Assembly: GCA_031763025.1 (NCBI GenBank)
Contig: JASSKH010000009.1
Coordinates: 2,852,001-2,916,000 of the forward strand
Reading direction: 5' to 3'
DNA from: Macrocystis pyrifera
Taxonomy: Eukaryota; Sar; Phaeophyceae; Laminariales; Laminariaceae
DNA length: 64,000 nucleotides
This document shows, one piece after another, positions 953-61,363 of the stretch; the first letter of the stretch is position 1, and the number at the start of each line of letters is the position of its first letter. Under the pieces are notes generated by a model, which worked only from the letters and a program-made list of their open reading frames with translations, had not been told where the DNA came from and did not search any database. The translations under genes and the position numbers were made by a program.

Positions 953-2413
953 GTTTGTCGACGCCCGCCTTGAAGCTCGGCTCCGCTCAGTGTACCTTAG
1001 CTCACACGCCGTGCGCTGTAAGCTTCTCGCGCGTTGGTGCTCGGTGCACATCGCGGGTGGCTATCCCAGTTGGTGTTGAGAGGGATGGCACACAGCAGCA
1101 GCGGAGCGTACACATGATCATCACCACAACGAATGCACCGCATGTTCATGTTACGATTAGGTTCCATGATTTTGATTGGTGGCAAATTTCTCCATCTCGG
1201 AGGATACTTGATGGCATGCTTGGTCCCCATCATAAGCTATCTCACCTTCCTATGCTGGGTGTCGTAAGTTCATCCCCTTACTCAGCTGACCTGCTACTCA
1301 CAACCACAATGCGCGCAGCATGCAGCAGTTCAAGCAGTTGGGTTTAGTGGAGCGTTAGTATGTTCTACGATTAATTTGGAGTTTTTAGAGAGCCATCCTG
1401 TACAGGAAAAAGGGGTCTTGGGGTGTTTTTGACTTGAAAATTGAACGGTAGTGGTGGACAAACCTTGAAAGTAGATCTTCCTGGGGTAGCTAATTAGGCA
1501 CTCTGATTGGCTTCGTAGGGGTATGTTTTACGCGGCTCAATCAACTTTCGAGTATTTCCCAGCCACAGCATCCCCAGTCATCCCCAGTCAACCTAGAGTC
1601 TTCCCAAGCTCAGCATCCACGCCGGCCGAGCCAACCTAGAGTCTAAACAAGCACAACATCCCACCACTGACCACTGGCATTGGGTTCGGGTTCAGGTTCG
1701 GGTTAGGGTTTGGGTCGGAGGGTCGGCTTCAGGTTAGAGTCAGGGGTTGGGTTGGATCGTCGCCCGTACCCTGATCCCAACAGGAACCAAAATACCCGAA
1801 CAGCCTACCAACCTAAAGATCCAATCTTCCAGATTGTAAGGGAACCTCTCTATTTACCAGTGGGTAGGGGGGTTGTGTCGCGCTTTGTTTCAGTTTCGCG
1901 TTCGGTTTGTTCTCTCGCCACTCTTCTTGTCCGCCCTCGTGCCTTCCCGGGCGCGCCGGCCCTTGCCGGCCCTTGGGCCGGCGCGCCGGAGACGGCACGC
2001 GTAATGCGAATCGGTGGTGGGTCGACCCGATCTCCCACGCCCCGCTGTATCATAGAGTTGAGACGACGAAACGACGACGGGCGACTCTATTCAACCTTGA
2101 CCCAGACAGCAGTCTGCCATGCAGCTGACGCCTTTCGTGTGGTGCCATCGCTGGGTATGTGGCGTTCGGCTCCGACGACCGGGACCAATCTCCGTCGGCT
2201 TCACGGGGGAGGGGCTTCTTCCATGAACCCAGCAGTATCGCTGTGCCCCAACTTTGGATCGTGCCTCGCGAACCGAAGCGCAGCAAGCATAATATTTTAC
2301 CGTGTGTGTGAAGATCGCGGGTGCTGGCGCCGTTGCAAAAGCGCGCTCGCGACACAGACCCCCTACCCGCCCCCTCCCTTGCCCGCGCGGACGGCAAGAC
2401 ATGAGTGGTTAAG
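953..2413. other. intergenic stretch, no gene recognised
   Basis: No recognisable coding exon. It holds a degenerate GGGTT(C/A)GGGTT run around 1680-1770 and a perfect 13-bp GC-only inverted repeat at 1950-1987. The open frame around 1710-2417 has no recognisable domain and is probably chance in GC-rich DNA. Confidence 0.5.
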
Positions 2414-2438
2414 GTGAGTTCGAATCTCACGTTCACCA
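2414..2438 (-). other. primer-binding-site-like sequence beside LTR copy 1
   Basis: The plus strand reads as a tRNA T-arm (GTGAG, loop TTCGAAT, CTCAC) followed by GTTCACCA. On the minus strand it therefore begins TGGTGAACG, directly after the CA that ends the LTR-like repeat. The same 25 nt flank the other full copy. Confidence 0.5.
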
Positions 2439-4618
2439 TGAAATCGCTTGTTAAAGAAGCGTGAATTTCCTCGTGTCAAGAATCTGAAAAAATACTTCTG
2501 GATCCCCAAAAAAATGGAACCGCGTGTTGGTGGCACGTCGACCCGTATATCCGGTCCGTTCCAGGGGGGGAGAGGGAGAGTGTTACGAGGCTTAGATTGC
2601 CAATGGGTAGGCGATCGGTTGGCCTTTTACCAACAGCCAAACAGACTAAGGCCATAACAGAGAGGAATCGACACCCAGATGTGCTCGTCCCACTCCACGC
2701 CACAAGCTCTCCTAAATTCCTCCTATCTGACGTACCCCTATTATTGAAGTTTCCTATGGCTACCGATCGTTCTTCTGCTAATGTAAGAACTTCTCATTTT
2801 ATGGTCCTATCTCCGTTAAGGAACTTTACTTTCGTCTAACGGGTTATCCGCCATTATGATAGAGAACATTTCTAATAGAACGTTACTACTCTCGACTAAT
2901 GGAATATCCGCCGGGACAATACATTCTTTAGATTATTCCCGTAGTGCTGAGACCACAAAACTGCAGACAATATTATCTATATATATTCCATGAGTACTTC
3001 ACTCATATCACATTAGCCCACCCTGAATAGTCGTATATGCAGACCACAAGATGGTCGAAGGGTGATGACAAAGCTTATCCCAAACGACCAGGAGAACGTG
3101 GTCGAAGATGCGGCTATTCGAAACAAAAGAAATGAGGCTATAGATTCCCCCACGCGTGGTAATAAGACCCAAACACCACGAAGGGGGGGTGTTCACTGAG
3201 AACGACCACTAAAAGAGAGACCACGTGAGAGGAAGACAGATCTCAAAGCGGAGGCGAAAGGAGAAAACAGCCAAAGCGAAAACAAAGAAAGACGAAAGAA
3301 AAAGGCGACAGAATCCGAAGCGAACGCTGAAGAAGAAAACTAAGACCGAAGTGAAGGCAAAAGAAGGACGTACAAACGTATCACTGAAGCCATTGTCTGG
3401 GTCCCAAGGCGGTACAAACGGGGGTTGTTCGCTGAGCCGGATTGGCGAACGAGGAAACTTTCAAAAGGAGGCAGTGTCACAATTCATAAACGCATATATC
3501 CGGTAGGCGATCTTCTTCTGGACAAGCCGTAGTCACAGGTGTCGTCCCTTCTCCCCCCCGGTACGTGCCTTCATTTTTATCGCGCATAGGGTTCAGCATT
3601 CCCACTGCTCATCGATCTTCATCGACTGTTGCTAACTCGTGCTTTCGCGCCCTCTGAAAACTAAAAATCTGGTGAACAAAAACAAGCAAAACCCGAAAAA
3701 ACGAGCATCGTTCTTCCCACGCGGGTCGTATCGTACGAATATATAGGCCGTGTAAGCACGCGTGAACACGCGCAAACGCGCACGATTCGAGATTCTATAA
3801 CGCACGCCCCGAGGGGAAAACAATGGAACCGATTTTTTGCCCAAACAAAGTAGCGCATTCACAACGAGAATGGTGGCCCAAGGAATATGTGCCGAGATAT
3901 TTTTCATCACTAGACGCATCGCTCGGCGTTTGCGCGCTCTCCGTTGTAGATAAAACCGGCTTGGAAAAATCGAAAATATTTCGACGGGTGTCTAATTAAT
4001 TCGGTGCGAGTCGACGAGGGACTGAAAAGGTCAAAGCCTTCTCGCGACAAAAGCGCAAGGCGAGAACCGTAGCGGGAAGGAGGAAGAAGAGCCTGCTTTG
4101 TGACCCCGGATCTGAGTCATGAAATACGACTATTACTGGGGACCACAGTAAATAGGACCAAATATTGTTAATAAAAATAGGCAAATATGTAGGTTTTTGC
4201 GTCTACCGTAGGTCCTATTTACTAGGGTCCCCTGTAGTAATAGGAAATAGAGAAAAGAAGGGCGAAGACAATAAATTGGATGGAAAAAAATAAATAAATA
4301 AATAAGTATCGTGCCTGTCAAACACGCGCGCATCCGTTGTTAGCCGTACGAGTACTATGCATATTATCGCTACCGTTGGCACAAGGATTCTACCTAAAAA
4401 GTAAGAAGATAACCTAAAGCAAGAACGCAAGAACAACACGTGCAGGGTCCGACAAGGATTTTCCCGATTCCCGGAGACCTGCCGTGTGTGTTCTTCACAT
4501 AAAACCGTTATTTCTGCCCGTCGGCATCCAGCACACCCGGCCGTGAGGCTGAATGACTGTACGTACGTACAGAACCGGGGTCTTGCAGCAGACCATAAAA
4601 TGCCGCTGCTATGAATAT
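2439..4618 (-). mobile_element. LTR-like repeat copy 1 (about 2.2 kb)
   Basis: Direct repeat of 15523-17978, alignable from TGAAATCGC at the left end to a GCTGC(A/T)ATGAATAT end. The left edge abuts a 25-nt tRNA T-arm-like sequence (2414-2438), as expected of a primer-binding site beside a 5' LTR of a minus-strand element. It carries a nested MITE-1 (4131-4241). The right end has a TATA-like ATAAAATG near the terminus. What lies left of 2414 does not resemble gag-pol, so this may be the end of a mostly lost element. Confidence 0.6.
4131..4241 (+). mobile_element. MITE-1 copy nested in LTR copy 1
   Basis: Same family as the copy at 24306-24410. Ends are degenerate (CTATTACTGGGG / CCCCTGTAGTAATAG). 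The same site is occupied in LTR copy 2 (17492-17602), so the insertion is older than the duplication of the LTR-like repeat. Confidence 0.8.
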
Positions 4619-4772: not shown

Positions 4773-5625
4773 GGGGGCGGGACTCGACGCCCAGATATAC
4801 TCGTCCCACCCCACGCCACAAGCTCTCCTCAATTCCTCTTATCTGATGTACTCCCACAGAACTTTCCTATGGCTACCGATCGTTCTTCTGCTAATATAAG
4901 AACTTCTCACTTCGTGGTCCTATCTGCGTTAAGGAACATTACTCTCGTCTAACGGGTTTTCCGCCCTAGGGAACATTCCTATGAGAACGTTACTCTCGAC
5001 TAACGGAATATCCGCCGGGTTAATCCATTCTTTGGATTATTCTCGTATTCGTGAGACTACAAGACTGCAACGTATTATATATATCTATAGCCCATGAGTG
5101 CTCTACTCATATCACATTAGCCCACCCTGAATAGTCGTATATGCAGACCACAAGATGGTCGGAGGGTGATGAGAAAGTTCGTCCCAAACGGCCAGGAAAA
5201 AGGTGGTCGAAAATGCGGCTATTCGAAACAAAAGAAATGAGGCTATAGATCCCCCCACACCTCGTAATAAGACCCAGACACTACGAAGAGGGGGTGTTCG
5301 CTGAGAACAACCACTAAATAGGAGACTAAAGTAGAGAGAGACAGAACTCAAAGCGGAGGCGAAAGGAAGAAATCACTCAAAGTGAAAACAAAGAAAGACG
5401 AACGCAGAAGGAGACAGAAGCCGAAGCGAAGGCTGAAGAAGAAAACGAAGACCGAAGTGAAGGCAAAAGAAGGACGTACAAACGTATTACTGGAGCCATT
5501 GTCTGGGGCCCAAGGAGGTACGAATGGGTTGTTCGCTGAACCAGGTTGGCAAACGAGGAAACTCTACAAAGGAGACAGCGATCACAATTCAAAAACATAT
5601 ATATATATATATATCCGCTAGGCGC
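4773..5625 (-). mobile_element. partial third copy of the LTR-like repeat
   Basis: Matches the interior of copy 1 (about 2669-3505) and of copy 2 (about 16080-16912), including the AAGAAAGACGAA purine-rich stretch and the ACATATATATCCG end. It is more diverged than the two long copies and lacks both outer parts, so it is an older fragment. Confidence 0.6.
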
Positions 5626-6801: not shown

Positions 6802-6987
6802 TGTAGTGTAGCGGGCGGGCTGGAGGTCGATCTTGATCGGGCCGGGGTCGTCCAGGAACCGGACGATGTAGGAGCTTCCCGGTGAAGGCTCTGGCGGAGT
6901 TCCCGAAGACGCGGCAGGGGGTGAGCGGTGAGCGACCTTGCCCAGCCACCAAAGGCCGTCGCGCGCCTTGTGCCATATGTGTGCTCC
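6802..6987 (-). other. Tudor-like segment at the end of the minus-strand element
   Basis: About 60 residues with an aromatic W-H-K-x-x-D-G-L-W-W-L-G-K-V start and a YIVRFLDDPGPIKI end, the pattern of Tudor-type beta-barrels (W/Y, then a V-x-F-x-D-x-x strand). The same segment occurs in the plus-strand element. Confidence 0.5.
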
Positions 6988-7179
6988 GGAGGGGAGGATG
7001 GTGGTGCTGAAGTTGTGGAGCCAAAGGCTGCGGGAGACCAAGGCGTAGCCGGGGGCGAGGATGATTTGTCCTTGAGATCGTGCCAGTTCGCGGTAAGCGG
7101 CGCCGATGCGCATCTGGCGGTAGAGGCAGTTCGTCTGGCGGTGCTGGGTTGGTGATCGTGACCAGTAGAGTAGGATGTG

Positions 7180-7330
7180 GCGCCGCAAGTGTTGGAGGTC
7201 CAGCTCGCGTTCCCAAGAGGGGCTGAGAAGTCCAGTTCAGTGAGTTTCGTACAGAACGGCGATGACCCCGTCGCGGCTGCGTACGAGTTGATGGTCAGTG
7301 ATCTGCTCGACCTCGAGGCGTTCCGGTGGA
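7180..7330 (-). other. chromodomain-like segment behind the minus-strand integrase
   Basis: A reading with RLEVEQITDHQ and GVIAVLYETH resembles the start of a chromodomain and corresponds to the better preserved copy at 21862-22026. Chromodomains after the GPY/F module define chromoviruses. Confidence 0.55.
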
Positions 7331-10300
7331 GGAGTGACGTCGTCGACGGTGACGTGGTAAGGTGGGGACTTGGCGGCAGAGCTGTGAGCACGTATGTAGT
7401 AGAGTTCCGCGGGCAGGTGCTTGGGGATGTCGCTGGTGTCGTCGGGGTTCCGGCAAGGTTTGGATCGTTGGACGGAGACGCGTGGCTTGGAGTCCCGTCC
7501 CGGAAGGTCGGATAGAAGGTCGAGGAAAGTAGCTTGTCGTGAAGGGGGCGATTGTCGGGGGTGCTTGAGGCGGGCGTCGGTCCTACGGCGAGGACCTTGA
7601 AGGGGCCATTCCAGTTCAGGGAAAGCTTCGTCTTGAGGACGGTTGCGTCGGTGCCCTTTTTGACGCCTTGGCGGGAGGCGGAGTTGTAGACCCAAACCCA
7701 GCCGCCTACGGTGAAGGGGGGGGATGCTAGGAGGGCGGCCATGATGGGCGCGTTGCGGCGCTGGAGACGCGAGACGGTGAGTCGGTGTACTTCGCGGACG
7801 AGGGAATAGGCGCGTCGTTGTCGGTCGGTGGCGAGGTTGATGTAAACCAGGTGATCGCGGTCCAAGCTTTGGTGACCGCCGATGTTGTCGGTTTCGAAGA
7901 CCGAGAGCGGGAGGCGAGGAAGGCGGCCCATGTGGATTTCGTTAGGTGCAAGCCCTGTGGCGGCGTTCACGGAGTTGTTGTAGGTCGACGACACGTGTAG
8001 GAATAGCACGTCCCAGTCGGTCTGCTGTTCGTTGCCAACCATAAGGAGCATTTGGGCCAGCACATGGTTGACGCGCTCGACGCCGCCGTTGGTGCAGGGG
8101 TGGTAGGAGCTAGTGTTGACCTTGTGGATGCCAAGGCGCTCATAGACGATGTTCGCAAGCTTGGAGGTAAAGTGTAGTTCGTTGTCGGAGAGGAGTGTAA
8201 CCGGGCACCCCCAGAGAGGGATGCACTCGTTCAGGATGATGTCGGCAGTGCCGGCGGCCGTGAACTGCGCCGCTGAAACGGCAAACATATCGGCGCGGCG
8301 GCTGAAGCAGTCTATAAAGAGGAGGGTGTGGACGTTACCGCGCGGCGTGAGCGGTACGGGCCCGAAGTAGTCGATGCTGACGGTGATGCCAGGCCCGTTG
8401 GGCAAAGGAAGAGAAAGGATGGGCCAGCGAATGGTGTGTCGGGAGGTATTCCGCGCCTGGCATTGAAGGCAACGGCGGATCCACCAGCGGACGGAAGCGT
8501 CCATGCCAATCCACCAAAAGAAACGTGCCAGCATGCGGACCGTTCGGGTGACTCCCAGGTGTAGAGAGGTGGTGGCGTGGCATGTGTTCAGCACCCACGG
8601 GCGCATTAACATTGGCACGTAGGCGCGTAAAGGGGGGGGGTGGTGGTATGCTGTTCCCGGGTGGGGTTGTGGGTGGTCGTTGGACCAGGAGGGTGATTTC
8701 GTCGTCGGTATGGTGCAGCTTGCTTTTGGAGGCAAGAGTGAGGACGTCCGAAAGTTGTGGGCGCCGGGCGAGGGGATGAAATCCAGGAGGTCGTGCGGCG
8801 TGGGGGCGGGGGAGTCCAACGACAGGAAGCGGATGGTGGCGCAGCACAGGGGCTCCGCGCGTTGTTCTCACGCCCAGTCTTTGTAGGTGTAGTGCTCGAC
8901 GCGAGCGAGGAGGTAGGGGTCGTCATCGGGTTCGACGACGGGCTCCGGAAGGGGCTCTGACGGTGGTGTTGGAGCCGGCGGAGAAGGCGTTGTTGAAGGG
9001 GTAGCTTTTTGTGTAGTGGGCGCCAATGGCTTGGGTGGCGTCGATGGTGCGGGTGGCGCGGGGGCTATAGCTGGAGGCGTCGTCGTGTGAGGAAGTCTTG
9101 GCTGGGCCCCGGCCGGGGGCGGGGTCGCACGGAAGGCGGGTGCGGTCGGCGTCCAAACCGATAGTCGGCTGTAGGCCGAGGGGTTCCCGCGGCAGCGGCG
9201 ACGCGATGGCGGGTCCGAGAAGATACCAGACCTGGAAGGGCTGGTGTCGTGGCGCCAATGGTGGACGGCGGAGAGATGACGGACGGCCTGGAAGCCGAGT
9301 CTGGAGGAGCTCCGGTGTTCACGGCGGCATTCTCGGTGCCGGTAAGCTGTTCGGTGGTGGAGTCGCGGGTCGCAATAGGCCCGACGAAGGTGTGGGTTGC
9401 GGGGAAAAGAGTGGGGTGTTCCATACGTGGTCCCAGTAGGCGGAAGTCGCGGAAGTCGTCGTTGGTGAAGGGGAGCGGCTGGACGGTTGGGATGGGTCTG
9501 GAAGGGGGGGACACGAGCCCACCCAAGCCGATACCCGGGGCGGAAGGGTCGTTCGGCGCGAAACCACAGGGGCGGATGAGGTAGATGCCGACGGTTTCGG
9601 GACCAGTGAGGCGGTTGCACCTGGTGCGGTCGGCGTCGGTGGCTGGATGGGGAAGCCGGGAGAGGAAGTCGGCGTTGCCGTTTGCCGTGCCCTTCCGGTA
9701 CTCCAGCGTGCGGGTGTACGCTGAAAAGAACTCGAGCCAGTGCGTTGTCCGGGGGTACGGTGATCTTGAACGGCATGAGCGAGCACGAGCCGAAGTCAGT
9801 CTTGGTGGTGGATAAGAGGTCCTGTAATTCGCAGAGGGCGTCGCCCAGGTTGTTGATCACCGATGGGGTCCATCCAGAACCGTGACGGTCGAAGTCGACG
9901 TTGAGTAGGTGTAACGGCAGGCGTTGCCAGAGGTCTAGGAAGCTTTCCCGTTGATCGGCGTTGAGGCGTGCAAGGAGCTGTGCACGGGGCACGGGGCTTT
10001 TGGTATGGTGGGGGATCGTCTGTCAATGGACTCTGGTCGGCCACGGGGATGTTGTCGTGGAGGGTATGTACATCCGGAATCGGAGGGGGATGGGGAGGGG
10101 ACAACGAAGGGTGTTCAAGGGTGGAAAGTGGTACCTGTACCAGTGGGGAGCGGGAGGTTCCGAGGAGGTCGCCCGGCTCGAGATCGGTAGATCCAGGTAT
10201 TGGGACCGTTTGGTACCCGTCGGAGGCGAAAGTGGCCGTGTCGGAAAGGGGGTTCTCGCGGGGGAGCATGTTCACCATGTAGTTCCCGGTAAATGCTGGA

Positions 10301-11199
10301 GCGCCTGTCTGACGCACCAGGTTGACCTTGACGAGCTTGGGGGTAGAGGAAAGCGAAATAGCTTTGTTGCCGGCGAATTGGAGGTGGTAGACGTCGTCAG
10401 TGGAACGATCGTCGGGAATGAATGCTGAGGCTCCGTTGGGGTCATGGTGATTCAAGGAGAGCACACCGCGGGTTCGCCGAGGAAGTTGGTGGGGGGGGGT
10501 GGGCTGTTGCTGGAGCGTGGTATACGAGCGTTGCTCGAAGCGCATCCAGCTGTCTCGTCCCAGAAGGATGGGGCGCTGCATGGTTCCTGCAGGAACTACG
10601 CAGGCCCATACTGCTAGGGCAGCGGTGGGAGTCTGGAGGCGCATAAACTGGATGCTTAAGCGGATGGAAACGGAGGTGGAGAGGGTGGCTGAAGTGCCGA
10701 AACCTCCCCATGAACGGGGGGAACTGTGCCGGTCACACGCATCGGTGGCTGCCTGGGAAGCCTTCAGTTGTTCCACCGCGGCTGCGGTGATAAACGACTG
10801 GGGCGAGCCGGTATCGAGCAGTGCCACGAGTTCGCGGCGCGTAGTGGCGGTGGGGCCGCTGTGCACGAGTACCTTCGTCGTGAACGACGCGTCGTCGACG
10901 GTAATGATGCCGCTTGTACGGCATGGTCCGTGTTCCGGTATCGGCGGGCGGCGGGTAGGGAGGTGGCTGTGGGCTGCGGTGTTGATGGTGGACACTTGGG
11001 CAAAGTGGCTGCTAGGGTAGGCGTTGGGGGTAGACGGCGGTAGGAGTAGCCCAAGTGGTGAGTTAGGCGGTTGCCATGGAGGGGTCGGGCTTGTTTTGTG
11101 GATGCCGTCGGCGGTGGGGCAGACCCGGGTGGGGTCGGTGGAGGCGGGTGTTGGCTCCGGGTCGTGAAAATGGGGAGGAATTGGAGGTTGGGCGGAGCG

Positions 11200-11656
11200 A
11201 TTGGCGCCGAGACTTTCTCGAACGTCCATCGGTATCCTGCCTTGCAGATTCCGACCACGCCAACGCGTCGGGTCGCAGGCGTCCGGATGGTCGGCCTTGA
11301 AGTCTATGCCCCATATGAGGTCGTGTGGGCTGGCCTCGGCGATGTGCTTGTTCCATTAGCTCCTGCCGTAGCTCCGGGTGTTGGCGGAACTTGGAGAAGT
11401 TAATGTTGAGGACGATGGTGTAGCGGTGTCGCTCCCAGGCCGGTTCGTTGAAGTCGGAAACGGTTCGCCCAAGTGCTTTTTGGTCGGCCGGGTCGTGGGT
11501 CGCTTTAAAGCGGCGCTCAGTTGTGATGTCCCCGAAGAGCGCGGCCTTCTGCGCCATCATCATGTGCTCAGCGCAGTTGTATGTGACGCCATCGTGTTCG
11601 ATGTCGCACAGATACCACTGCGAAAAGACCGAAGAGGAATCCCAGAAGAAGTGGAA
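11200..11656 (-). other. NADAR-type (YbiA-like) domain inside the gypsy element
   Basis: The minus-strand reading shows the NADAR hallmark order: an FFW..S..FSQW start, then YNCAEHMMMAQKAALFGD, LGR..SDF, W..HR...V, and NFSKFRQHPELRQELM. A downstream stretch has the W-G-I-D-F and W-R-G-R-N-L-Q-G motifs that normally close this fold. NADAR enzymes are N-glycosidases acting on riboflavin-pathway intermediates, and some remove ADP-ribose from guanine. It lies between the gag-like and protease regions. It is part of a broken element, so present activity is doubtful. Recognition is from motifs only. Confidence 0.72.
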
Positions 11657-14600
11657 AGATGATGTGGCCTCTGCGGTGATGTGTGCAGTTGATGGCGTCT
11701 TTTTTGTTGGGGGTGGGGGGCGACGATAGTCATTCCTATCGCCGCCTGGCGTCGACGGGGGTAGAGTCAGAAACGATCTAGCGGTGCTGACCGGAACCCT
11801 CGTGTTCGCGGGGGAATTGCTCGGCAAAGCCGAGGTACAGGGGCGGTCCTCGCCGGTGCTTATACGCCGGGCGGAACGACCCTCAAGGGCCCTATCGTCC
11901 AGCTTTTGGAGAACAAGGACATACTCGCTAGGGGATGTCACTCCTGGGGTCCGTGTCCACGCGTTGCGCGAAGCAGGCGAGGAGGACGGGTCAGGGGGCT
12001 CAGGGCAGACCCTGGTCGACGTTGGTCGCGAGTCTTCCGTATTTAAAACGGGACTGTCCCTCGAGCTCAGGGACAGCGGTGGTGTCAACACCGTGGCAGC
12101 TGGAGGAAGCCCGTCGTTCGCGGGTTCAACGCTGTCACAAGAAAAGCGCGCATGCTGGAACAAGCGCGTATGGAGCGGCCGATTTGAGGCAGACTCAGGG
12201 GGCGATGGCCCGGTAGACGAAACAGTAGTTTCGTATGAACCGGAACCGCTGGTAGCCGTAATCGTCGAGACGTTTCCCAGGGTAGCAATGTCTGGGGTCT
12301 CGGCAATAGTCAGCAAGCAGCGTTGCTCACCGCCAGGAGACGTCGAGTGGAGCATCCTGGTGGGGCTCAGCGTCTTGGCCTCCTCCCGCCCACACCTCAA
12401 GGCAATCACTTGGGCAAGATGATCAGTGCTTGAACAAGTGGCTGAGCTGGGAAATGGGCTGGGGTAGGGGCGGGGCAATTGGGAGGCAGGGGTCGTCGGG
12501 GGGCGTGGTGCACGTGATTTACTCGTGCGTCCTGGGAGCCTCGGGTGCTCGCAGTAGATGCTGTTGGTGGAGATGCGGCAGTTGCTCCACCATCGGCTTG
12601 TCAGTTGGTACGGAAGGTACCCGGCTGCCTTTGGTTCGGGTGGGTACTCAAGTTGGTGCTGCCCATCCGCATGTTCGCGGGGGCGGCAGGTGCGCAAGTG
12701 TTGGTCGCAGGGTATGCACCGTCAACGCTGAAGACGAGGGGGCAGGCTTGATGCGTTGTTGTTGGAACTGTTGCCCCGGCGACTGTCGGTTGCCGTTGTC
12801 GTGTGACCGGCCGTTGTTGTGGCGCCAGTTGTCGGAGCGCCGTTGTTGCCGCGGTAGTTGCGGGAGTGGTTCTGGTTGGCGCGGTTGCTGTTGTAGTGTT
12901 TCCGCTGCGGTTGTTTTTGTTGTTGCCTCGACTGTTGTTGTTGTCGTAGCGGTTGGAGTTCCGCTCCAGGTTGCGCTCGTATTGTCCACGGCGGTAGGAG
13001 ATCATCCTTCGTTGCCATTGGCGGTAAGCGTGTCCACCATCGTTCAACTGTCCGAGTGCCGGGTTCAGGATGCCGGACGTGTTGAGGAAGCCCTCGGGGC
13101 AGGTCTTCATACTGTGGTCCGTACCATTGTAGTTGAGGCAATGCCCACCATGAGCGCGTAGGGCTTGGGCACGGGCCGAGCTCGTCAGGAGCGGTGTCAG
13201 GAGCGGCGGGGTCTGAGGGTCAAATGTGGTCGTGACCATGTATACCTCCTCGTAGTGTCGCAGCGGCCAGTCCGCCTCATCCTCGCATAACGGGTCGCGC
13301 TCCTGTTCGGCTACGTTCATGACGAACGGGTTGGAGGAAGACCCCCTTGTGTTGGTACCTGGGCCACGCGGAGCTTGCTGCCGCGCTGGGGTCGGTGGAG
13401 AGGAGGAGTACGTGACGAATCCGCCGGAGGAAGTCGCGTAAAAACGGTGCCCGTTGATTGCCGGGGTCTTGTTGGTCGCCAGCACTTCGAAAGCTGCCCA
13501 CATGTCGGCAACCGAGGAGAAGGGCTGCGGGGTAGTCATGAGGCGCCCGGACAAAGCGTGGGCATGAGGGACGGGTATTGGCTGCCCGTAGTGCCGCGTA
13601 CAATCTCGATGACCATGGCATCGCTCGGCTTGCAAGACCCGTTTCGTGCCTTGTGCGATGGACACACGTTCCTTAAAAGCACGGACGAAGGTTGCAAAGT
13701 CCGTCAGATTAGGGACGCCGAAGGTGTGGAGCTGCGCGGCCCTGGTCGCCGTCGTCGAAGTGGTTCGTGAGTAGACGTAGGAGCTTCTTGAACGCCGATG
13801 GTCCGGTGTCGTCGACGGTGAGCTCCTGGCGCACCTGGACGAAGAAATCGTCGATGAGGTGAGGCAGTGGCGATGTCATGACCTGGGGGGACGAGAGCGC
13901 CTTGCGGAAACACCTTTGGAGTGGGGCATCCCATCCCACTACCCACGGAGGTGTATCAAACGACTGCTTCTCCGAGTCATCGCACACTATCAGGATCTCG
14001 CCGAGGACTAGCTTAACGCTGGCGAGGAGCATGCCCAGGTAGACGGCAGGTTCCACATTGTCCGGGCATGTAAACCGCACTAGCGCAGTGAACTTGCGCA
14101 TATTGACCCCGGCGTAGAGGCGCCGGACACTACGACGTTCCGCCGCCTCGTCATGGGCCCGTAGTGGCTCCTGTCCTCAGGCTGAGTGCTCGTGTGGGGG
14201 GGGGGCGCTGTCATCGTGGGAGTTGTCGAGGTGGAGTGGGGCGGTGTCGCCGGCGCGTGCCCGTTGTGGGGCGGGTGGTTGGGGGTGTCGGGAGAGTGGG
14301 TCGAGGCTCGGTTGGGTTCCACACGTAGCCGTGGCCGGCGTTCGAATGAAAATACCGTCGCTCGAGTAAAAGGGTATCGGCGGCCCCGATGAACTCGGAA
14401 GAAACACCCTCGGTGGCGGTTCGGGCCAGAACAAAGGTGATCGACGGGTCGCAGTCGGGTGTGAAGAGTCGCCATACGCGGTGTGCCTCTAGTGAGACAT
14501 CCGAGGCCGTCGCGTCGCGTGTACTCTGCATCCAGAGGAGCTTAGCGTCGAGGAAGACCCAGTCATTGGGCTCAAAGCCGGACGTCTGCGGTTGCCTGTG

Positions 14601-15497
14601 CCCAGTGGGTATGGGGGCTGGCGAGGGTTGGGTCGATAGTGGTGCCTGGGACATTGTGGTCCCAGTTTGGTGTTGCGGAGGCTGGGAGGTGGTGGTCCTA
14701 GACATCGCGGCGGACGTAAAGGGTGCCCATGGTGAGGAGCGAACGGCTGCGATTGGGCCGTGGTGGCCGCGGTCGCAGCTGTAGTCCCATAGGTGGAGTC
14801 GCAAGGGTTCGAGGAAGGGGTGGGGGACGGCGGTAACACGAGTAGGAGGTCAGCGCTCTCTTTCGCGAGAAGGAGGAGCTGCTCGTGGTGGGCTTTGAGA
14901 GCCGCACGGCGCTCACGGAGGGCCGTGGGATCGCCTTGGTAGCACCATGGATTGAGAGCAAGGGTGGAGATTTCCTGTGCGAAGACCTCCGGTTCTGGTA
15001 GGTCCGGCACTGGTCGTGCCTGTGCTCCCATTGGAGAAGATCCCGGTGTGGTGGGGTGTAGCGTGAGGTCGCTCAGCATGGTTTCAAAGCCAGGGGTGTC
15101 GTCGTCGGTAGCGCGAGAAGGCCTTGCGGCATACCTCGCTTCGCGGGGGTTGATGGCGTCGGTGGAGGGGGCGCCGGATACGGTGGAGGAATATTTATCG
15201 GTCATAGGCGGGTGGAACGCTTGTACTGGAACGGGAAAAGGTTTGGTGGAAGATGGAGAGGGCGGGTGGATCCAGGCTTGGATCACGGTAGGCGGCTACA
15301 ATACCAACGAACCGATCCAGGGGAGAGAAAGGAGTGACGGTAAGGACGTACGATAGGGGATGTTGAGGGTGTGTGTGCCACGATTATAGTGCCCGTCGAA
15401 GGCTTTTTAGTCGAGGGCGTCTAGCTAGTACCAGGCGCCTCGCGTTTGATTGACGGTAGTATCACATGGCGACGACGGCAGACATGGGTGGTTGGTC

Positions 15498-15522
15498 GTG
15501 AGTTCGAATCTCACGTTCACCA
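15498..15522 (-). other. primer-binding-site-like sequence beside LTR copy 2
   Basis: Identical over 25 nt to 2414-2438: T-arm GTGAG/TTCGAAT/CTCAC plus GTTCACCA on the plus strand, so TGGTGAACG on the element strand, immediately inside the LTR-like edge at 15523. Only five bases separate the T-stem from CCA, fewer than a standard acceptor stem, so the donor tRNA is uncertain. Confidence 0.5.
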
Positions 15523-15708
15523 TGAAATCGCTTTTTAAAGAAGCGTGAATTTCCTCATGTCAAGAATCTGAAAAAATACTTCTGGATCCCCAAAAAATGG
15601 AACCGCGTGTTGGTGGCACGTCGACCCGTATATCCGGTCTGTTCGAAGGGGGGAGAGGGAGAGTGTTACGAGGCTTAGATTGGGTAGGCGATCGGTTAGC
15701 CTTTTAGG

Positions 15709-16049
15709 ACCAACGCCCCGACGGGTAGGGTGGACCGTAACTGGACAAGTCCGGCGAGAAGGCCTCATAACCTCGTTTTTTGTTAGTGGGTGAGCTCGCG
15801 CAAGTCCCATACTACCCGGGAGAGATGACTCTCCCGGGTGGCTATCTCCACCGCACCTGCTCCTCTCGGGGGTCAGATCGGGTCAACGTGCCCAAACTCC
15901 AGGGGTAACAACAGCCTGTTCTGATGTTACAACGGGAGCTATGGGCTAAATTGACACACGACACGAAATTGGAACGTGGAAGTGTGGTGAGCTTAAGCTT
16001 TATATTTTTACCAATCCGCCGGAGGATAAAAAAAAAAAAAAAAAAAATA
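15709..16049 (+). mobile_element. poly(A)-tailed insertion inside LTR copy 2
   Basis: Copy 1 lacks this block (its sequence jumps from GGCCTTTTA to CCAACAGCC near 2640). The inserted sequence ends in about 20 A residues (16027-16047), as expected of an RNA-derived insertion. It includes a perfect 11-bp hairpin, ACCCGGGAGAG-loop-CTCTCCCGGGT, at about 15813-15838. I do not recognise the source RNA. Confidence 0.55.
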
Positions 16050-17491
16050 ACCCAACAGACTAAGACCATAGCAGGGGGGAATCGACACCCAGATATACTC
16101 GTCCCACCCCACGTCACAAGCTCTCCTAAATTCCTCCTATCTGACGCACCCCTATTATTGAAGTTTCCTATGGCTACCGATCGTTCTTCTGCTAGTATAA
16201 AAGCTTCTCATTTTATGGTCCTATCTCCGTTAAGGAACGTTACTTTCGTCTAACGGGTTATCCGCCATAGAGAACATTTCTAATAGAACGTTACTCTCGA
16301 CTAACGGAATATCCGCCGGGATGATCCATTCTTTGGATTATTCCCGTAGTCTTGAGACCGCAAAACTGCGGGCTATATTATATATATATAGCCCATGAGT
16401 ACTTCACTCATATCACATTAGCCCACCCTGAATAGTCGTACATGCAGACCACAAGATGGTCGAAGGGTGATGACAAACTCATCCCAGACGACCTGGAGAA
16501 GGTGGTCGAAGATGCCGCTATTCGAAACAAAAGAAATGAGGCTATAGATTCCCCCACACGTGATAATAAGACCCAAACACCACGAAGAAGGGGTGTTCGC
16601 TGAGAACGGCCACTAAAAGGGAGACCACGTGAGAGGAAGACATATCTCAAAGCGGAGGCGAAAGGAGAAAACAGCCAGAGCGAAAACAAAGGAAGACGAA
16701 AGAAAAAGGCGACAGAAGCCGAAGCGAAGGCTGAAGAAGAAAACTGAGACCGAAGCGAAGGCAAAAGAAGGACGTATAAACATATTACTGGAGCCATTGT
16801 CCGGGGCCCAAAGAGGTACGAACGGGGGTTGTTCGCTGAGCCGGATTGGCGAACGAGGAAACTTTCAAAAGGAGACGGTGATCACAATTCATAAACATAT
16901 ATATCCGGTAGGCGATCTTCTTCTGGACAAGCCGTAGTCACAGGTGCCATCCCTTCTCCCCCCCGGTACGTGCCTTCATATGTATCGCGCATAGGGTTCA
17001 GCATCCACACTGCTCATCGATTTTCGTCGACTATTGCTAACTCATGCTTTCGCGCTCTCTGAAAACTAAAAATCTGGTGAACAAAAACAAGCAAAACCCG
17101 AAAAAACGAGCATCGTTCTTCGCACGCGGGTCGTATCGTACGAATATAAAGACCGTGTGAGCACGCGTGAACACGCGCAAACGCGCACGATTCGAGATTC
17201 TGTAACGCACGCCCCGAGGGGACAAAAATCGAGCCGATTTTTCCCAAACAAAGTAGCGCACTCACAACGAGAATGGTGGCCCAATGAATATGTCGCCGAG
17301 ATATTTCCATCACTAGACGCATCGCTCGGCGTTTGCGCGCTTCTTGGAAATTAATTCGGTGCGAGTCGACGAGGGAAGGGAAGCCTTAAGGGTCGAAGCC
17401 TTCTCGCGACAAAAGCGCAAGGCGAGAACCGCATCGGGGAGGAGGAAGAAGAGCCTGCTTCGTGACCCCGGATCTGAGTCATGAAATACGA

Positions 17492-17602
17492 CTATTACCG
17501 GGGACCATAGTAAATAGGACCAAATATTGTTAGTAAAAATAGGTAAATATGTAGTTTTCTTTTGTACCGTAGGTCCTATTTACTAGGGTCCCCTGTAGAA
17601 AT
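17492..17602 (+). mobile_element. MITE-1 copy nested in LTR copy 2
   Basis: Orthologous to the insertion at 4131-4241: same site, same degenerate right end (CCCCTGTAG). Confidence 0.8.
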
Positions 17603-17978
17603 AGGAAGGAGAGAGAAAAGAAGGGCGAAGACAATAAATTGGATGGAAAAAAAATGAAAAAATAGATATCGTGCCTGTCAAACACGCGCGCATCCGTTGT
17701 TAGCCGTGCGACTACTATGCATATTATCGCTACCGTTGGCACAAGGATTCTACCTAAAAAGTAAAAGGGCAACCTAGAGCAAGAACGCAAGAACAACACG
17801 TACAGGGTCCGAAAAGGATTTTCCCGATTCCCGGGGACCTGCCGTGTGTGTTCTTCACATGAAACCGTTATTTCTGCCCGTCGGCATCCAGCACACCCAG
17901 CCGTGAGGCTGAATGACTGTACGTACGTACAGAACCGGGGTCTTGCAGCAGACTATAAAATGCTGCTGCAATGAATAT

Positions 17979-19081
17979 ACTTCGTAGTACTCCTAGCGTC
18001 ATTCAATAGGCGATCGTTTGATAATGCACTCCAGGTCACAACAACGCTGTGTGCATTGCCCCCAGTACTTATGTCCCTCTCCACCCTCCTACCCTCCCCC
18101 CCACACCTCGGATGCAAGCCAGGTACGAACGGGTACGACCGGTGGCGAACGCGCCGATACGGTTCCGCCTCAAGCGTGAACCCTCCGCGTACATGCAGAG
18201 GTTGTCGTCCAAGGCAGACGATGTCTTCGGAAGAAGGACGCCACCGTCCCGCCGGGGAACAGCGTGAGTCTCTCGACCTGTTTCTCTGCCGTGTACTAAA
18301 TGCAGCGGAACGATCCTGTCTGCCACCCTTTTGTACCACTTCTGTAACGCTTGATTGCGACATAGGAAATATACCAGGTATTTATATGCTTGACACGGAC
18401 TGCACAGCAGTAGCCAACGCTGCGGCTGCCATAAGTCTGAGTTAGCGTCCAATGCTGCCGGATTCACTCTCACGGCCGCGCGCGCATTCTCGATGTCCGT
18501 TTTTTTTTCAGTAAAAAAAATCGTACCGTCAGCCGACGACGTATCTTCACCTATCAATGCTAACATTTTCCTCCGCATCGGACAGATAGATCACGATCTA
18601 GATTATCTAGATCATATAGATCATGTTGAAAATCTAGATCATCTAGACCAGCGAGATCATCGAGATCATCCACATTCAATTTTCCCCGAAGAACGTTGTG
18701 GGACACCAAATATTGTGCAAGAACCTTACCATCTACCTGATACATCTCACCCGGAAGGTATGCGTGGAAGAGTGGTGTCGTACAGACCTTTCCCGGAAAA
18801 CACCGTCTGGATCGTGCAGAACATAGATATGCCAATCGGGAATCTACTTGCTCCGAACGGCCTAGATCATGAGATGGGGATCTGATCTATCTGATCTATC
18901 TGATCTGTCTGATGTGTGAAGTGTTTGGTTCCGTGCCCCGCATGCCATGTTGTAGGCGAGAGAGGAAAAGTTAAAAAAAAAACAAGACGAGTGGTCGACA
19001 GGGAGGCATCATCGCGGCATGGCCAAGGCGAAGACACCTCCAGCGTGCCCACGTTGACATTTTTGCTGCAATTGTTAGCTC
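17979..19081. other. unassigned repeat-like stretch
   Basis: No host exon recognised. 18590-18680 is a degenerate tandem array of (T)AGATCAT/CTAGATC units and 18885-18915 a short TGATCTATC array. Confidence 0.35.
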
Positions 19082-19374
19082 ATGCGGTTGTTGTTGTTAA
19101 TGTTGTCAGCTTGCGTGAAACTTACGACTGCTGTGTTGCGCTCCCGTATGAAAGCGATTGACTTTTTTTTCGTTGTGCGGACCGCAGCGAAAAGCATGGG
19201 ATGCCAAAACCTGATCAAGGGGATGACGCAGTTATGTAGGTGTTATGATACTGCTTTGTTCGCTCGTGTATCTGCTTCCGTCGCCACCGTCGACCGCCGT
19301 CCTGGCTTGGGGGCTTTTTCACCTCCCGCCAACGCCGCTTTCGCTTCGGTTTTTGTCTTACCCTCCGGGGGCGA

Positions 19375-19860
19375 CCAGGGCTCTGCAGAAGCCCCCGCTG
19401 CAGCGACGATAGTCGCCCAGCGTGCTCCTCTCCCGACGAGCACCCTACAGGTCGAAGATTCCGTCGTGAGCACTGCCTCGGCCGCGTCTTCCCTCTCAGG
19501 CCAGGGCTCTGCAGAAGTCCCCGCCGCAGCGATGATTGTCGCCCAGCGCGCTCCTTCCCCGACGAGCACTTTACAGGTCGTCGTGAGCACTGCCTCGACC
19601 GCGTCTTCCCTCTCAGGCCAGGGCTCTGCAAAAGCACCCGCTGCAGCGATGCTTGTCGCCCAGCGCGCTCCTCCCCCGACGAGCACTTTACAGGTCGAAG
19701 ATTCTGTCGTGAGCGCTGCTCCGGCCGCGTCTTCCCTTTCATGCCAGGGCTCTGCAGAAGCCCCCGCTGCAGCGACGATTGTCGCCCAGCACGCTCCTCC
19801 CCCGACGAGCACTTTACAGGGAAAAGATTCCGCTGTGATCACTGATCCGGCCGCGTCTAC
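19375..19860 (+). repeat. four tandem ~120-bp repeats in the pre-integrase linker
   Basis: Each unit encodes a segment like GSAEAPAAATIVAQRAP followed by TSTLQVEDSVVS and a Ser/Ala-rich run. Units start near 19378, 19502, 19619 and 19745. The second lacks a few codons. Differences are mostly single bases, so the amplification was recent relative to the element. Confidence 0.8.
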
Positions 19861-21861
19861 CCCATCGCCGCCTGGCAACCCGGCGCCTCCGAACGTGTTG
19901 CCGTCCTCAGGCCGCATATCATCTCGGACGCGCCGACGAACAGCCGCCGCCGCTGGCACCGTGCCGCCTGCTGTTGATTATGGCTTCGGGCCCGGCGGGG
20001 CCCCTAGACCATCCGCCCGGTGTGCTACCACCCCGCTGCGAGCCCCACGGCCGCGACCGCCCGCACCCGTCGTTTTGGCCCCGACTCCTGCCGCCTCGTC
20101 CGTCCCGACGGTACCCATCCCGTCCGGCCGCGATCGCACCGAGCCCGTGGGAACTCCTCTTTTACGACTTCCGCCGCCAACAGACGCACCTCCCGTCACC
20201 TCGACCGACTTGGACGCCCTCGGCGCAGCTGCCGAGTTTCAGTTCGGTGATTCCGCAGCGCGCTATTCGCACGCCGACTGGGCTCGGGAACAACAGGCTG
20301 AGCCCGCGCGCAACGCCGCCATGCGCTACATAGCCTTTGGCCGATCGGAAGTTTTGCCAGACGACTTTTTATCGGGTTTCCCTTCCCACCAGCGCCCTCC
20401 CTTTTCGGAGGTTCAGGAGCTGGCCAACAAAGGCCGCTTGCACACCACCGACGCGGGCACCGTTCTACTTGTCCGACAGCCGTCTCCCCCCCCTGCGTTG
20501 GATACGCCACGCCCGGTGGGTCGTACGGCCTGCTTATTGAACGACGAGCCTATTCGCATTTATGTTCCGCTGCTCATGCGCCCCTGGGTCATGCAGGCTT
20601 GCCATTCCACGGCTTCCTGCCACCTAGGAACCGCGTGCACCCTACGTATGCTCGAACGTTTCTACTGGTGGATCGGTATGAGCATCTGCATCCGGTGGTG
20701 ACTACGCAACTGCTTAAAGTGCCAAGCACGGAAAACGTCGCGGCAGACGGCCCGGCGGCCCTCCATCACGTTGCCCTTGCCAGAAGGGCCCGGCATCGCC
20801 GTCAGCATCGACTATTTCGGCCCCTTCCCGGTGACGCCTCGAGGCTATACCTACATCTTGCTTTTCACTGATCGTTTCAGCCGCCGAGCTGACATGTACG
20901 CCGTCACAGCGGCCGAGTTCACCGCTGAGGGCACGGCTAACATTCTCATCAACCGGTATATCCGTCTTTGGGGGTGCCGCGCAGCATCCTCTCGGACAAC
21001 GGCCTCCAGTTGTGCTCCAAGATTTCGCACGCCGTATATCAGCTTCTCGGGGTTCAAAAAATTGCCACCAGCTCCTACCACCCAAACGGCAACGGTGGGG
21101 TGGAACGTGTAAACCACACGATGACCCAGATGTTGGCAATGGTCGTCAACGAGCTCCAAAACAACTGGGATGAACAGCTCCCTCACGTCGAATTTGCGTA
21201 CAACAATTCCGTCAGTGCCGCCACGGGTCTGGCTCCCAACGAGGTACATATGGGTCGGCTCCCTCGCCTCCCTCTCACGATTTTCGAGCGTGCTGGAGTC
21301 GCCGGTCACCAGAGCTTGGCCCGCGACCACCTCGCCTACTGCGACTTGGCGACGGACCGCCAGCAGCGCGCGTACGATATCGTTCGAGAACACCACGCCC
21401 TCACTGTCGCTCGCGTGAACCGCCGCAACTCCGCCCTCTCCGACGCTCTGCGTCCGGTCCCCAAATTTGACGTTGGTGGTTGGGTGTGTGTGTACAATAC
21501 GGCGGCCACCATCCGCCAGGGCGCGAAACCAGACACGGACGCCAAGGTCCTCAAGGCCAAACTCTCACTCAACTGGACGGGCCCCTACAAAGTTCTCGCA
21601 GTTGGCCGCTGCTCCTCAGCGGACACCCCGGATGGATCTCTCGGAGCAAAGCTCCTGTATTTGGATCTTCCTTCCGATATGCCCGGCGCAGAGGCTCGCC
21701 GGCGCGTATCTGTTCAACGCTGCAAGCCCTGTGCCAACCCCAACGACCGTGGCGACATGCCGAAGTATTTGCCGGCGGGGTTGACGCAATACGTGCTCAA
21801 CAATTTCTCCAAGAAACCCCCTCCGTACCACGTCACCGAGGACGACATTTCGACCCCTCTT

Positions 21862-22026
21862 GAACGGCTAGAAGTGGAAAAGATTACTGGACATCAATCG
21901 GTTAGAGGTCGAGGTGGCGTCATCGCGGTGATGTACGAGACGCACTGGACGGGACTATCCCGGCCATCCTGGGAACGGGAAATGGACCTTCAGCTTTCTC
22001 GCCACGCAATTTTGCGCTACTGGGCC
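21862..22026 (+). other. chromodomain-like segment behind the plus-strand integrase
   Basis: About 55 residues: RLEVEKITGHQ start, hydrophobic strand VIAVMYETHWTGL, then SWEREMDL and a C-terminal helix with AILRYW, matching the chromodomain order (E-V-E-x-I; W-x-G; W-E; helix). Confidence 0.65.
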
Positions 22027-22197
22027 GACACCCCGAACCAACACCGCCAAACCAACCGCCTGCACCGCCGAATGAGAATTGGCGCGGCACAACGGGAGCT
22101 TTCTCGGAGTAACGGCGAGCGGTTTCTGGCACCCGGCTATGGTTGCGTATCGCACGCCGATTGGCTCCGCCGATACAGCAACACTGTACTTCCCAAC

Positions 22198-22350
22198 GGG
22201 GCCCACTTTTGGTACAAGGGCGATGACGGTCTGTGGTGGCTCGGGAAAATCAGCGCAACTACACCGACGGATGGAGTATATTTGGTTCGATTTCTGGACG
22301 ACCCGGGACCAATCAAGCTTCCTCTTTCTCCGGCGCGCTACACGACTTCG
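22198..22350 (+). other. Tudor-like segment at the end of the plus-strand element
   Basis: GAHFWYKGDDGLWWLGK, a short turn, then YLVRFLDDPGPIKL and ARYTT. The aromatic-rich first strands and the V-R-F-x-D-D motif are Tudor-like. Both elements retain it. Confidence 0.5.
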
Positions 22351-22461
22351 ACGAGAGCTGTACGAGGTTCTTGGTGTCTGCAAATTCACTTGGCTAGCGC
22401 GTTTACACGGGGGGTCCAGCATAACGTAGATGAATCTCGAGGTGCCGCCGTGGATAGCTGA

Positions 22462-27321: not shown

Positions 27322-51249
<23,928 letters not shown>

Positions 51250-58600: not shown

Positions 58601-61363
58601 GTATTAGACCCGCCACGTTACGCCTCCTGCGTGGAGCTCAAAACCAGTTTCGGCCAGCTCGGGACCATACAGAACTGGTGTCTGGTTTCGTCTGTCCGGG
58701 CCATTCCCGATCGAAATACAGAAAAATATTAAAGAGATTTCTGTTTTTTGGCCATCGATAAGATTCGATTAGTCGGATCTGGCACGAGGTTCTTCCAGGA
58801 TCTCTCTACAAACCCTGTTTCGTTTTCCGGGTTCGGCTCCCATAAGAGTCAGCCTTTTGGGCGGGGAGCTATACGGCTTCCAGTTCTGCCTGTGGTTTGC
58901 AGTGATACCTCGGCCTTTTGTGTTCTTCTCTTGTTTTTCCTTACTTTTTTTTTCTGTCTCTCCTGCGATCTATCTGGTTCACTGGCTGCGTATGTTGCGC
59001 TTGTCATAGCCAGCACATTGGCAGTGGCGTTGCCCTGCTACAGTCGAAACCTCCTCACTGCGTTTGCGATGTATCGCGTCTGGCTCGTTGTCCGTAGCCT
59101 GGAGAACTGGTACCATCTCTCTCTAGGATGAAGAATCAAATCTACGGATACTGGATGTGCAGGATGCCGACGGGTAGAAATAACGGTTTGTTACGGGGGT
59201 CCATAGTTAATAGGACCTATGTTACACATAAAAACCTATATATTTACCTATTTTTACTGACAATATTGGGTCCTATTTACTATGGACCCCCGTAATAGTA
59301 AATGGGACCAAATTTTGTTATTAATAGTAAAAATAGTTGTATTTATATGGTACCAGGGTTTTTGTGTGTACCGTACGAAGGTGCTATTTACTATGGTCCT
59401 CCGTAGTAGTGTGTTTTAACCCTTTCATGTAGGACTGCAGCACTAGTAGGATTTGAGTGGTTTATTCCTCAAAACGAGACTACTTACTGCGCAGCGCGTT
59501 TCAGGCCGTCAGAGGCTGAGACCCCGACCTAATGCAGTGGCACGTGCTCGCAGCGAGCTCAGCCGACGCTTGGGAGGGCGACGCTGGGTATGTACTGCTT
59601 GGTGAGGGTGTATACACGCTGGGTGAGGACAGAGACCATTGGACGAGCTCTATTAACCAGTAACCCCCCCGAAAGCCCACCCCGACCATGCATGGCGTGA
59701 GCACACACACACCGTATCCCCGTCCAACTTCTCTCCCCCGACCCCGACCCCAACCCTCCTTCCACCGCCCCTCCCCGCCAACACCTCCGCAGCTTGGTGC
59801 GGTAGTCTTCGGCTTGTTGAGCGATTCCTACGGCAGGCGCCCGGCCTTCCAGTTTGCCACGTTGCTCGTGGTCGTTTTTGGGCTGCTGACGGTGTTTGCC
59901 CCCAGCTTCTGGTGGCTGCTTCTGTTCAGGAGTATGGTGGGGGTGGGGGGGGGAGGGATGGAGGTGCCGTTCGATCTGCTGAGCGAGATTGTGCCCCGCC
60001 GCGAGAAGAGCCGGTGAGGTTTTCTACGGCTGTACAGCAGTGGTCCCTTTTTAGTGCCGGTTGAGTAGTACCGGCTGCCCGCTATATTACGGTGCCGGTG
60101 AGGTCGCTCGGAACAGATGGGATCAACGAGTGTGGCAGGCGGTGTGCGGAGTAGCTATTACGGGGGTCCATAGTAAATAGGACCAAATATTGTTAGTAAA
60201 AATAGGTCCGTAGTAAATAGGACCAAATATTGTTAGTAAAAATAGGTAAATATATAGATTGTTGTGTGTGCCGTAGGTCCTATTTACTATGGTCCCCCGT
60301 AATTTTGCCGGTTGCCGCTGTACTTGTATATAGTGCCGGTATTGTTGGCCGGCACATATGATACCGGCAATATAGAGGGACCACGACTGGTATGCCACTA
60401 CTCCGTCTCGAAATATAACGACCGTTGGTACTGATTACTAGTGTAGAAGCGGTGCTTGCATTTGGGGAAAAGAGCGGTAGGTTTCACGCGTCGTCGGGCA
60501 GGTCACCCGACCCCACTTGATGATTCATGATTTAGGTCTTCCAGGGCAGATGAGAGTATGGGTCTGTATTTTCTACAGCAGTGGCTCATAAAACCCTGAA
60601 CCTACATACGTAAACCTTACCCGAACCCCGACCGCCTGGGACACTTCTCGGCAGTAAATATGTAATATGGCGTTATTCTCGTGTGGACTATCAACCCTTT
60701 TGTTGAAGCTGGGCCAAGTCGCAAAGGCTACTGGACGCCTCCTCCCTCCTCCCCCCCGCCTCCTCGAAAATGTACCCCTAGGAAAACTATAATCTCCGAA
60801 TGAAGATGTATTGAGGTGTTATTATGGTGTGGATCATCAGCCATTTTGTCCAAGCTACGTGCCACGTTGTAAAACACTAATGGACCCCCCCCCCCCTCCT
60901 CAATAGCGCCTCAGCGTTGTGGTGGACGTCCAAGTAACCTGGGCTCTCGGCTCCGTCTCGGAAGGGATGCGTGGTCAATGGTCAAATGACTAAGGCAAGC
61001 AACGAATAAGCCCCCCCCCCCCCCCCCCCCAATCCCCCCACCCCTTTCCCTCATTGAAAATGCCTCAGTGTTTTGGTGGACGTCCAAGTGACCTGGGCTC
61101 TCGGCTCGATCTTCGTCGGCATCGCCGCCTGGGCCGTGCTCAGCTACGGCCACAGCTGGCGCCTACTGGCCCTCGTCTCTGCTTTACCCCCCCTGGCGGT
61201 GCTCTGCTGCTTCTCCTTCATCCCAGAATCGCCGCGCTGGCTGATTGCGAACGGACGGGAGGCCGAGGCGAAGGACGTATTGCGAAAAATGGCGAAGACT
61301 AACGGGGTGGAGTTGGTAGACATCACCATCGTGCCGGAAGAGGTGGGTCTGGGCGTGGGTCTC

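Follow-up and report, generated by a model that had tools for sequence, protein, structure and literature searches.

A multicopy Ty3/gypsy family of the giant kelp Macrocystis pyrifera with a NADAR domain at the Pol N-terminus

The window analysed here is a stretch of 64,000 nucleotides from the Macrocystis pyrifera genome (assembly GCA_031763025.1, contig JASSKH010000009.1, positions 2,852,001 to 2,916,000), in which a minus-strand Ty3/gypsy element carries a NADAR domain (Table 1). A preliminary description, made from the letters alone, had placed this domain at 11200-11656, and a search with the Pfam NADAR profile bears it out: the minus-strand translation of that interval matches profile positions 1-115 of 163 (93.8 bits, cut-off 35.1), and profile positions 117-162 are found in a second frame, within the open reading frame 9796-11355 (37.5 bits, cut-off 35.1). 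Both matches lie above the cut-off, and their E-values (1.8e-26 and 3.6e-9) rule out a chance resemblance. The domain of the window copy is complete, covering about 11209-11650, and is broken by a single frameshift near 11345-11350, so that the last ~45 residues are off the reading frame that had been quoted. All motifs of the quoted series are present in the minus-strand reading, and in the alignment the C-terminal piece bears the E, D and W of EASPxDxxW. A PDB sequence search with the open reading frame 9796-11355 returned no match. The domain lies between the gag-like frames and the protease, as had been described, with a zinc knuckle upstream and the protease motif LDTGS (10804-10818) downstream.

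Table 1. Features of the NADAR-bearing element and its surroundings in the window
Feature	Position	Strand	Basis
3' LTR-like repeat	2390..4618	-	same blastn alignments as 15474..17978
Third LTR-like copy, partial	4776..5604	-	blastn, 85-86% to the other two
Integrase core (rve)	8097..8396	-	PF00665.32, E 7.6e-6, 26.6 bits, cut-off of 32.6 not reached
Integrase zinc-binding domain (H2C2)	8445..8618	-	PF17921.7, E 5e-16
Junction of ~1.18 kb deletion (RT and most of RNase H)	9739..9740	-	blastn against L032
Aspartic protease region	10477..10830	-	Peptidase_A2B E 0.027, weak, below cut-off; motif LDTGS
NADAR C-terminal third, profile 117-162, other frame	11209..11349	-	PF08719.17, E 3.6e-9
NADAR N-terminal two thirds, profile 1-115	11345..11650	-	PF08719.17, E 1.8e-26
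Zinc knuckle CLNYNGTDHSMKTC, degenerate at its second Cys	13099..13140	-	read from open reading frames
Gag-like region, several reading frames, broken	12601..15295	-	open reading frames; alignment to L032
5' LTR-like repeat	15474..17978	-	blastn to 2390-4618, 90-92%, two pieces
Candidate primer-binding site	15498..15522	-	pattern, judged by eye
Gypsy fragment, family B by eye	19079..22461	+	Integrase_H2C2 E 2.9e-6, Chromo E 0.015

The gag-like region aligns at 90-93% to L032, another copy of the same family, except at 13171-14124; two pieces of it were searched against Pfam and gave no match. The intact counterpart of its degenerate zinc knuckle is CLNCHEDTHYLRQC, in L033. By blastn, position 9740 of the window joins position 4915 of L032 and position 9739 joins position 6092, and comparison with L032 shows that the window copy lacks the reverse transcriptase (RT) and most of RNase H. 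L032 is an imperfect yardstick in that its own RT is frame-broken and it is without a counterpart of window 13171-14124, inside gag. The window copy is dead, with gag and Pol in several frames and ~1.18 kb of RT and RNase H deleted; it is an old, inactive, RT-deleted member of a multicopy Ty3/gypsy family.

The LTR-like repeats flanking the element are 2.2-2.5 kb long and differ by a K2P distance of 0.075 across 2157 aligned sites. The candidate primer-binding site resembles a sequence complementary to a tRNA 3' end, CCA included, and identical letters stand at 2414-2438, so that a tRNA 3'-half-like sequence with CCA adjoins both LTR-like repeats; a primer-binding site is normally expected beside the 5' LTR only. 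ARAGORN found no tRNA genes over the window. Next to this family-A element, in the opposite orientation, is the family-B-like gypsy fragment of Table 1 (the two families are defined below), which shows 66% nucleotide identity to 6938-8606 and has motifs in common with L031; no NADAR was found in the two open reading frames of this fragment that were scanned. Dispersed repeats of ~110 bp, roughly 73-95% identical, occur in both orientations at many places in 24298-63806 (for example 33897-34009, 34297-34404, 35557-35665, 41529-41635 and 59191-59298) and are perhaps a small MITE family. An Rfam search gave no match.

We surveyed the Macrocystis pyrifera assembly (537,376,219 bases in 223 contigs) for further copies. 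The NADAR search yielded 1264 candidates, and all 150 that were scored lie above the Pfam cut-off, a lower bound from a scored set that favours intact domains; 126 of the 150 have no stop within the domain and 24 do. Loci were oriented by motif (L011, missed by the orienting pattern, was left out), and 32 of the 33 fetched loci could be assigned to one of two related gypsy families, A and B. With the window included, family A is represented by 8 rows and family B by 25; the latter correspond to 24 copies, L004 and L033 being the same one, and among the former L018 equals L017 and L030 equals L029, duplicates that were dropped for pN/pS and kept in the active-site count. The expectation that many elements would carry NADAR at the same place in Pol is thereby borne out, in two families. 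The RT/RNase H deletion junction of the window is common to seven of the eight family-A rows (window, L017, L018, L026, L028, L029 and L030), that is, to five of six distinct copies, with only L032 lacking it. This shared junction suggests that the RT-less form spread with the help of other copies; the form keeps NADAR and protease, along with integrase in the window copy.

Better-preserved copies give the domain order. In L031, of family B, an uninterrupted open reading frame of 1696 aa contains NADAR at residues 233-382, followed by the protease motif, RVT_1 at 886-1043 and RNase H at 1140-1242. In L033 a CCHC zinc knuckle, read from the sequence, lies upstream of NADAR, and integrase domains lie downstream of it in L032 and L033. 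The order gag, protease, RT, RNase H, integrase is thus found when pieced together over L031-L033, with gag recognized by its zinc knuckle only, the protease by its motif, RT and RNase H from L031 and integrase from L032 and L033; no Pfam gag model matched in these three copies. Chromo matches, both in family B, are weak and below the Pfam cut-off (E 0.0087 in a later open reading frame of L031, 0.015 at window 20941-22461). NADAR is thus, as had been described, an accessory domain carried by a Ty3/gypsy element. We identify the locus, with hardly any room for doubt, as a NADAR at the Pol N-terminus of a brown-algal Ty3/gypsy family present in many copies.

The preliminary description knew of no Ty3/gypsy family with such a domain. 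That statement no longer holds: in September 2025 NADAR at the Pol N-terminus was described for an Ectocarpus gypsy lineage (e.g. Gypsy-12_Ec32; PMC12477816), and the authors of that paper suggest a role for NADAR in processing the RNA intermediate. The pairing of NADAR with gypsy is genuine and already known from another brown alga. The kelp elements are built like the Ectocarpus NADAR-Gypsy, sharing its host group, its arrangement and the place of the domain, a likeness drawn from the published description and not from element sequences. A chromodomain is described on the integrase of the Ectocarpus lineage, and the kelp elements give the weak, sub-cut-off Chromo matches. They differ in their host, giant kelp, in which NADAR is seen in two diverged types and in a form with RT deleted. 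The kelp expansion, the two NADAR types, the brown-algal proteins sister to B and the RT-less form were not seen in the text of PMC12477816, and our search of the open-licence literature found no other NADAR-Gypsy report among the papers listed; the copies in kelp, the pair of NADAR types and the form without RT may already have been published elsewhere. One alternative, with which the dead state of the window copy agrees, is that a single dead element captured a host gene fragment on one occasion; it is excluded by the at least 150 above-cut-off matches in the genome and is further contradicted by the published Ectocarpus lineage (PMC12477816), and we regard it as vanishingly improbable.

Residues contacting ADP-ribose (PMC11543638) were mapped by alignment to PDB 8bau, which we infer from its residue numbering to be the YbiA-family NADAR of Phytophthora nicotianae and which family A matches with an E-value of 3.6e-18. 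An offset of two between the 8bau chain and the numbering of PMC11543638 was derived from the printed alignment, and 12 of the 13 residues were checked, G78 not being counted. E43, K50, K75, R79, V81, W89, R93, E125, D130 and W133 are kept in the window and in 8/8 family-A rows; in family B the same residues are kept in 25/25 rows, apart from K50 (24/25) and V81 (23/25). Eight active-site residues (E43, K75, R79, W89, R93, E125, D130 and W133) are therefore unchanged in every row of both families. Y84 is replaced by F throughout, and D86, which in the Phytophthora NADAR touches the adenine-side ribose (PMC11543638), has given way to E in family A and to C, Y or R in family B. The YbiA family is described as marked by Glu, not Asp or His, at its defining position (PMC11125620, PMC11543638), which is E125 of the Phytophthora enzyme and is E in the window, in 8/8 family-A rows and in 25/25 family-B rows. 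By profile and by this glutamate, the NADARs of the kelp elements are assigned to the YbiA family of the NADAR superfamily. They share family, active-site residues and the YbiA-type glutamate with the Phytophthora nicotianae NADAR (8bau) and with E. coli YbiA (2b3w), which are stand-alone proteins, whereas the kelp NADAR is part of a retroelement.

Between families (L032 of A against L031 of B), NADAR is 51% identical and the protease 54%, against 31%, 23% and 38% for linkers, 37% for the stretch after the protease and 68-69% for the RT part; in the codon comparison, in which synonymous change is close to saturation, pN is 0.34 for NADAR, 0.33 for the protease, 0.53 and 0.41 for the two adjoining linkers and 0.16 for the RT part. 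Eight partial relatives, gypsy-like proteins from other records, were compared (P0002 and P0016 were left out, and P0008 nearly duplicates P0009). Seven of the eight have NADARs 66-70% identical and linkers 28-58% identical, a range that leaves aside three aligned residues of one relative, and P0005, the sole one of the seven that reaches the protease, has 81% there against 69% in NADAR; the eighth, P0003, is 95-97% identical throughout. Within families, pN/pS of NADAR is 0.52 in A (6 rows) and 0.45 in B (25 rows), values biased downwards by the choice of copies by NADAR score, which makes the within-family test weak. The upstream linker gives 1.02 (A) and 0.98 (B), the NADAR-protease linker 0.47 and 0.60, the protease 0.58 and 0.53, and the stretch after the protease 0.54 and 0.59; stops in family-B rows number 7 in NADAR, 5 in the protease and 7 in the upstream linker. 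NADAR is thus better conserved than its adjoining linkers between families, but within-family pN/pS does not single it out from the linker that follows it.

Relatives of the domain were found in viral contigs (84) and in prokaryote genome contigs (206), and a NADAR tree was built from 64 chosen rows, with 4 of 80 fetched viral loci and 10 of 79 fetched prokaryote loci; neither the frame-broken copy of the window nor most of the partial proteins were included, and the bootstrap had not fully settled. Family B forms one clade (100/98) with five proteins, namely two from Ectocarpus, one each from Scytosiphon and Pylaiella, and one EukProt record, which are probably stand-alone host proteins, judging from their length (209-252 aa) and from no other Pfam domain lying over the cut-off. 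At lower support (88/89), this clade groups with bacterial proteins, including those of Nannocystis and Planctomycetes. Family A is a separate clade (100/100) whose placement is unsettled. The AU test does not reject A and B together (p 0.092) or A, B and the algal proteins together (p 0.31), both groupings having been picked after the tree was seen. Four of the brown-algal NADAR proteins (P0036, P0043, P0095 and P0099; 227-252 aa) have a short Cys/His-rich N-terminal stretch with, by eye, the pattern GCSxxC...HxxC/YC...HA, which has no Pfam name.

On the simplest view, a bacterial-type NADAR that brown algae already possessed was captured once, and A has evolved faster; the alternatives are that A and B captured it separately, that the domain of B was replaced, or that the host domesticated it. 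The first two, with B drawing on a brown-algal gene or having its domain later replaced by that of the host, would agree with the joint clade of B and the five proteins, four of them from named brown algae, and with the separate standing of A. They appear rather unlikely in view of the AU results, of the identical position of NADAR in the Pol of both families and of the similarity between A and B from 60 aa upstream of NADAR onwards, a score reached by 0 of 5000 shuffles; for the 60 aa flanking NADAR on either side, the A-B similarity is not significant (639/5000 and 510/5000). When the upstream stretch of B is compared with the algal N-termini, the score is reached by 45 (P0036), 3 (P0043), 283 (P0095), 114 (P0099) and 3 (P0065, a comparison of merely the 14 aa adjoining the domain) of 2000 shuffles, and with bacterial-type proteins by 185 (P0037) and 731 (P0084); the family-A stretch gives 253, 1527, 378, 459 and 1417 of 2000 against P0036, P0043, P0095, P0099 and P0065. 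The similarity of the B stretch to the brown-algal N-terminal part is thus weak and uneven.

What such a domain may do is suggested by the biochemistry of other NADARs. In vitro they are reported to undo the ADP-ribosylation of guanosine in both DNA and RNA (PMC11543638, PMC11125620, PMC11833690), and among the hydrolase families tested only they did so on RNA (PMC11833690); the YbiA-type NADAR of Phytophthora cleaves guanine-linked ADP-ribose (PMC11543638). A role in countering ADP-ribosylation, as had been proposed, is plausible by analogy with these enzymes. We propose that the kelp NADAR would be made as part of Gag-Pol and packaged in the particle, where it would act as a guanine ADP-ribosyl hydrolase (N-glycosidase) clearing ADP-ribose from the RNA or cDNA of the element, so that reverse transcription would be unblocked, a 'house-cleaning' task of the kind performed by retroviral dUTPases. 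This particle-borne hydrolase is favoured because the active site is kept and the domain lies inside Pol; we hold it tentatively, at a little under even confidence, and points against it are the change at the D86 position in both families and the within-family selection test, in which NADAR does not stand out from the linker that follows. The dUTPases of LTR elements are likewise nucleotide-cleaning enzymes in Pol, though different enzymes; in retroviruses their position is variable, including between gag and RT, and in rotifer elements they lie between PR and RT (PMC5408684). Retrotransposon-borne NADARs are also described in ORF1 of Tx1 LINEs of Crassostrea gigas, which differ in being non-LTR elements, with the domain in a different ORF and divergent hits (PMC12477816).

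In bacteria and plants NADARs act in riboflavin metabolism, where they clear away its reactive intermediates (PMC11543638), so that the substrate of the element enzyme need not be nucleic acid. It could be an active N-glycosidase on a small molecule, such as a riboflavin intermediate or an NAD or ADP-ribose derivative, and aid the element by altering the host cell instead; a point in favour is that the retained residues touch the ADP-ribose part of the ligand. A domain in Pol upstream of the protease would be expected in the particle, which better suits a nucleic acid, and we consider the small-molecule substrate rather improbable. Less probable still is that NADAR is retained for binding or structure, as an ADP-ribose reader, a spacer or an aid to particle assembly, without catalysis. 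RT-deleted copies, incapable of the cycle alone, do retain the domain (7/8 family-A rows, 5/6 distinct copies), yet the eight invariant residues are the same in every A and B row although roughly one NADAR position in two differs between the families. Returning to the particle-borne hydrolase, the whole explanation, a NADAR-Gypsy family as in Ectocarpus together with the hydrolase role, seems to us evenly poised between right and wrong. An extension of it, in which the particle-borne NADAR would be a counter-defence against a host ADP-ribosyltransferase acting on retroelement nucleic acid and its domain would derive from, or be the source of, the bacterial-type NADAR gene of brown algae, is speculative and on balance unlikely.

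Nucleic-acid ADP-ribosylation is known chiefly from the toxin-antitoxin systems and phage conflicts of bacteria. The NADAR of these elements is a domain open to purification and assay. The retention of a de-ADP-ribosylating type of enzyme by a eukaryotic retroelement, in at least 150 copies and two diverged families, would suggest that such modification acts on the retroelements of brown algae.
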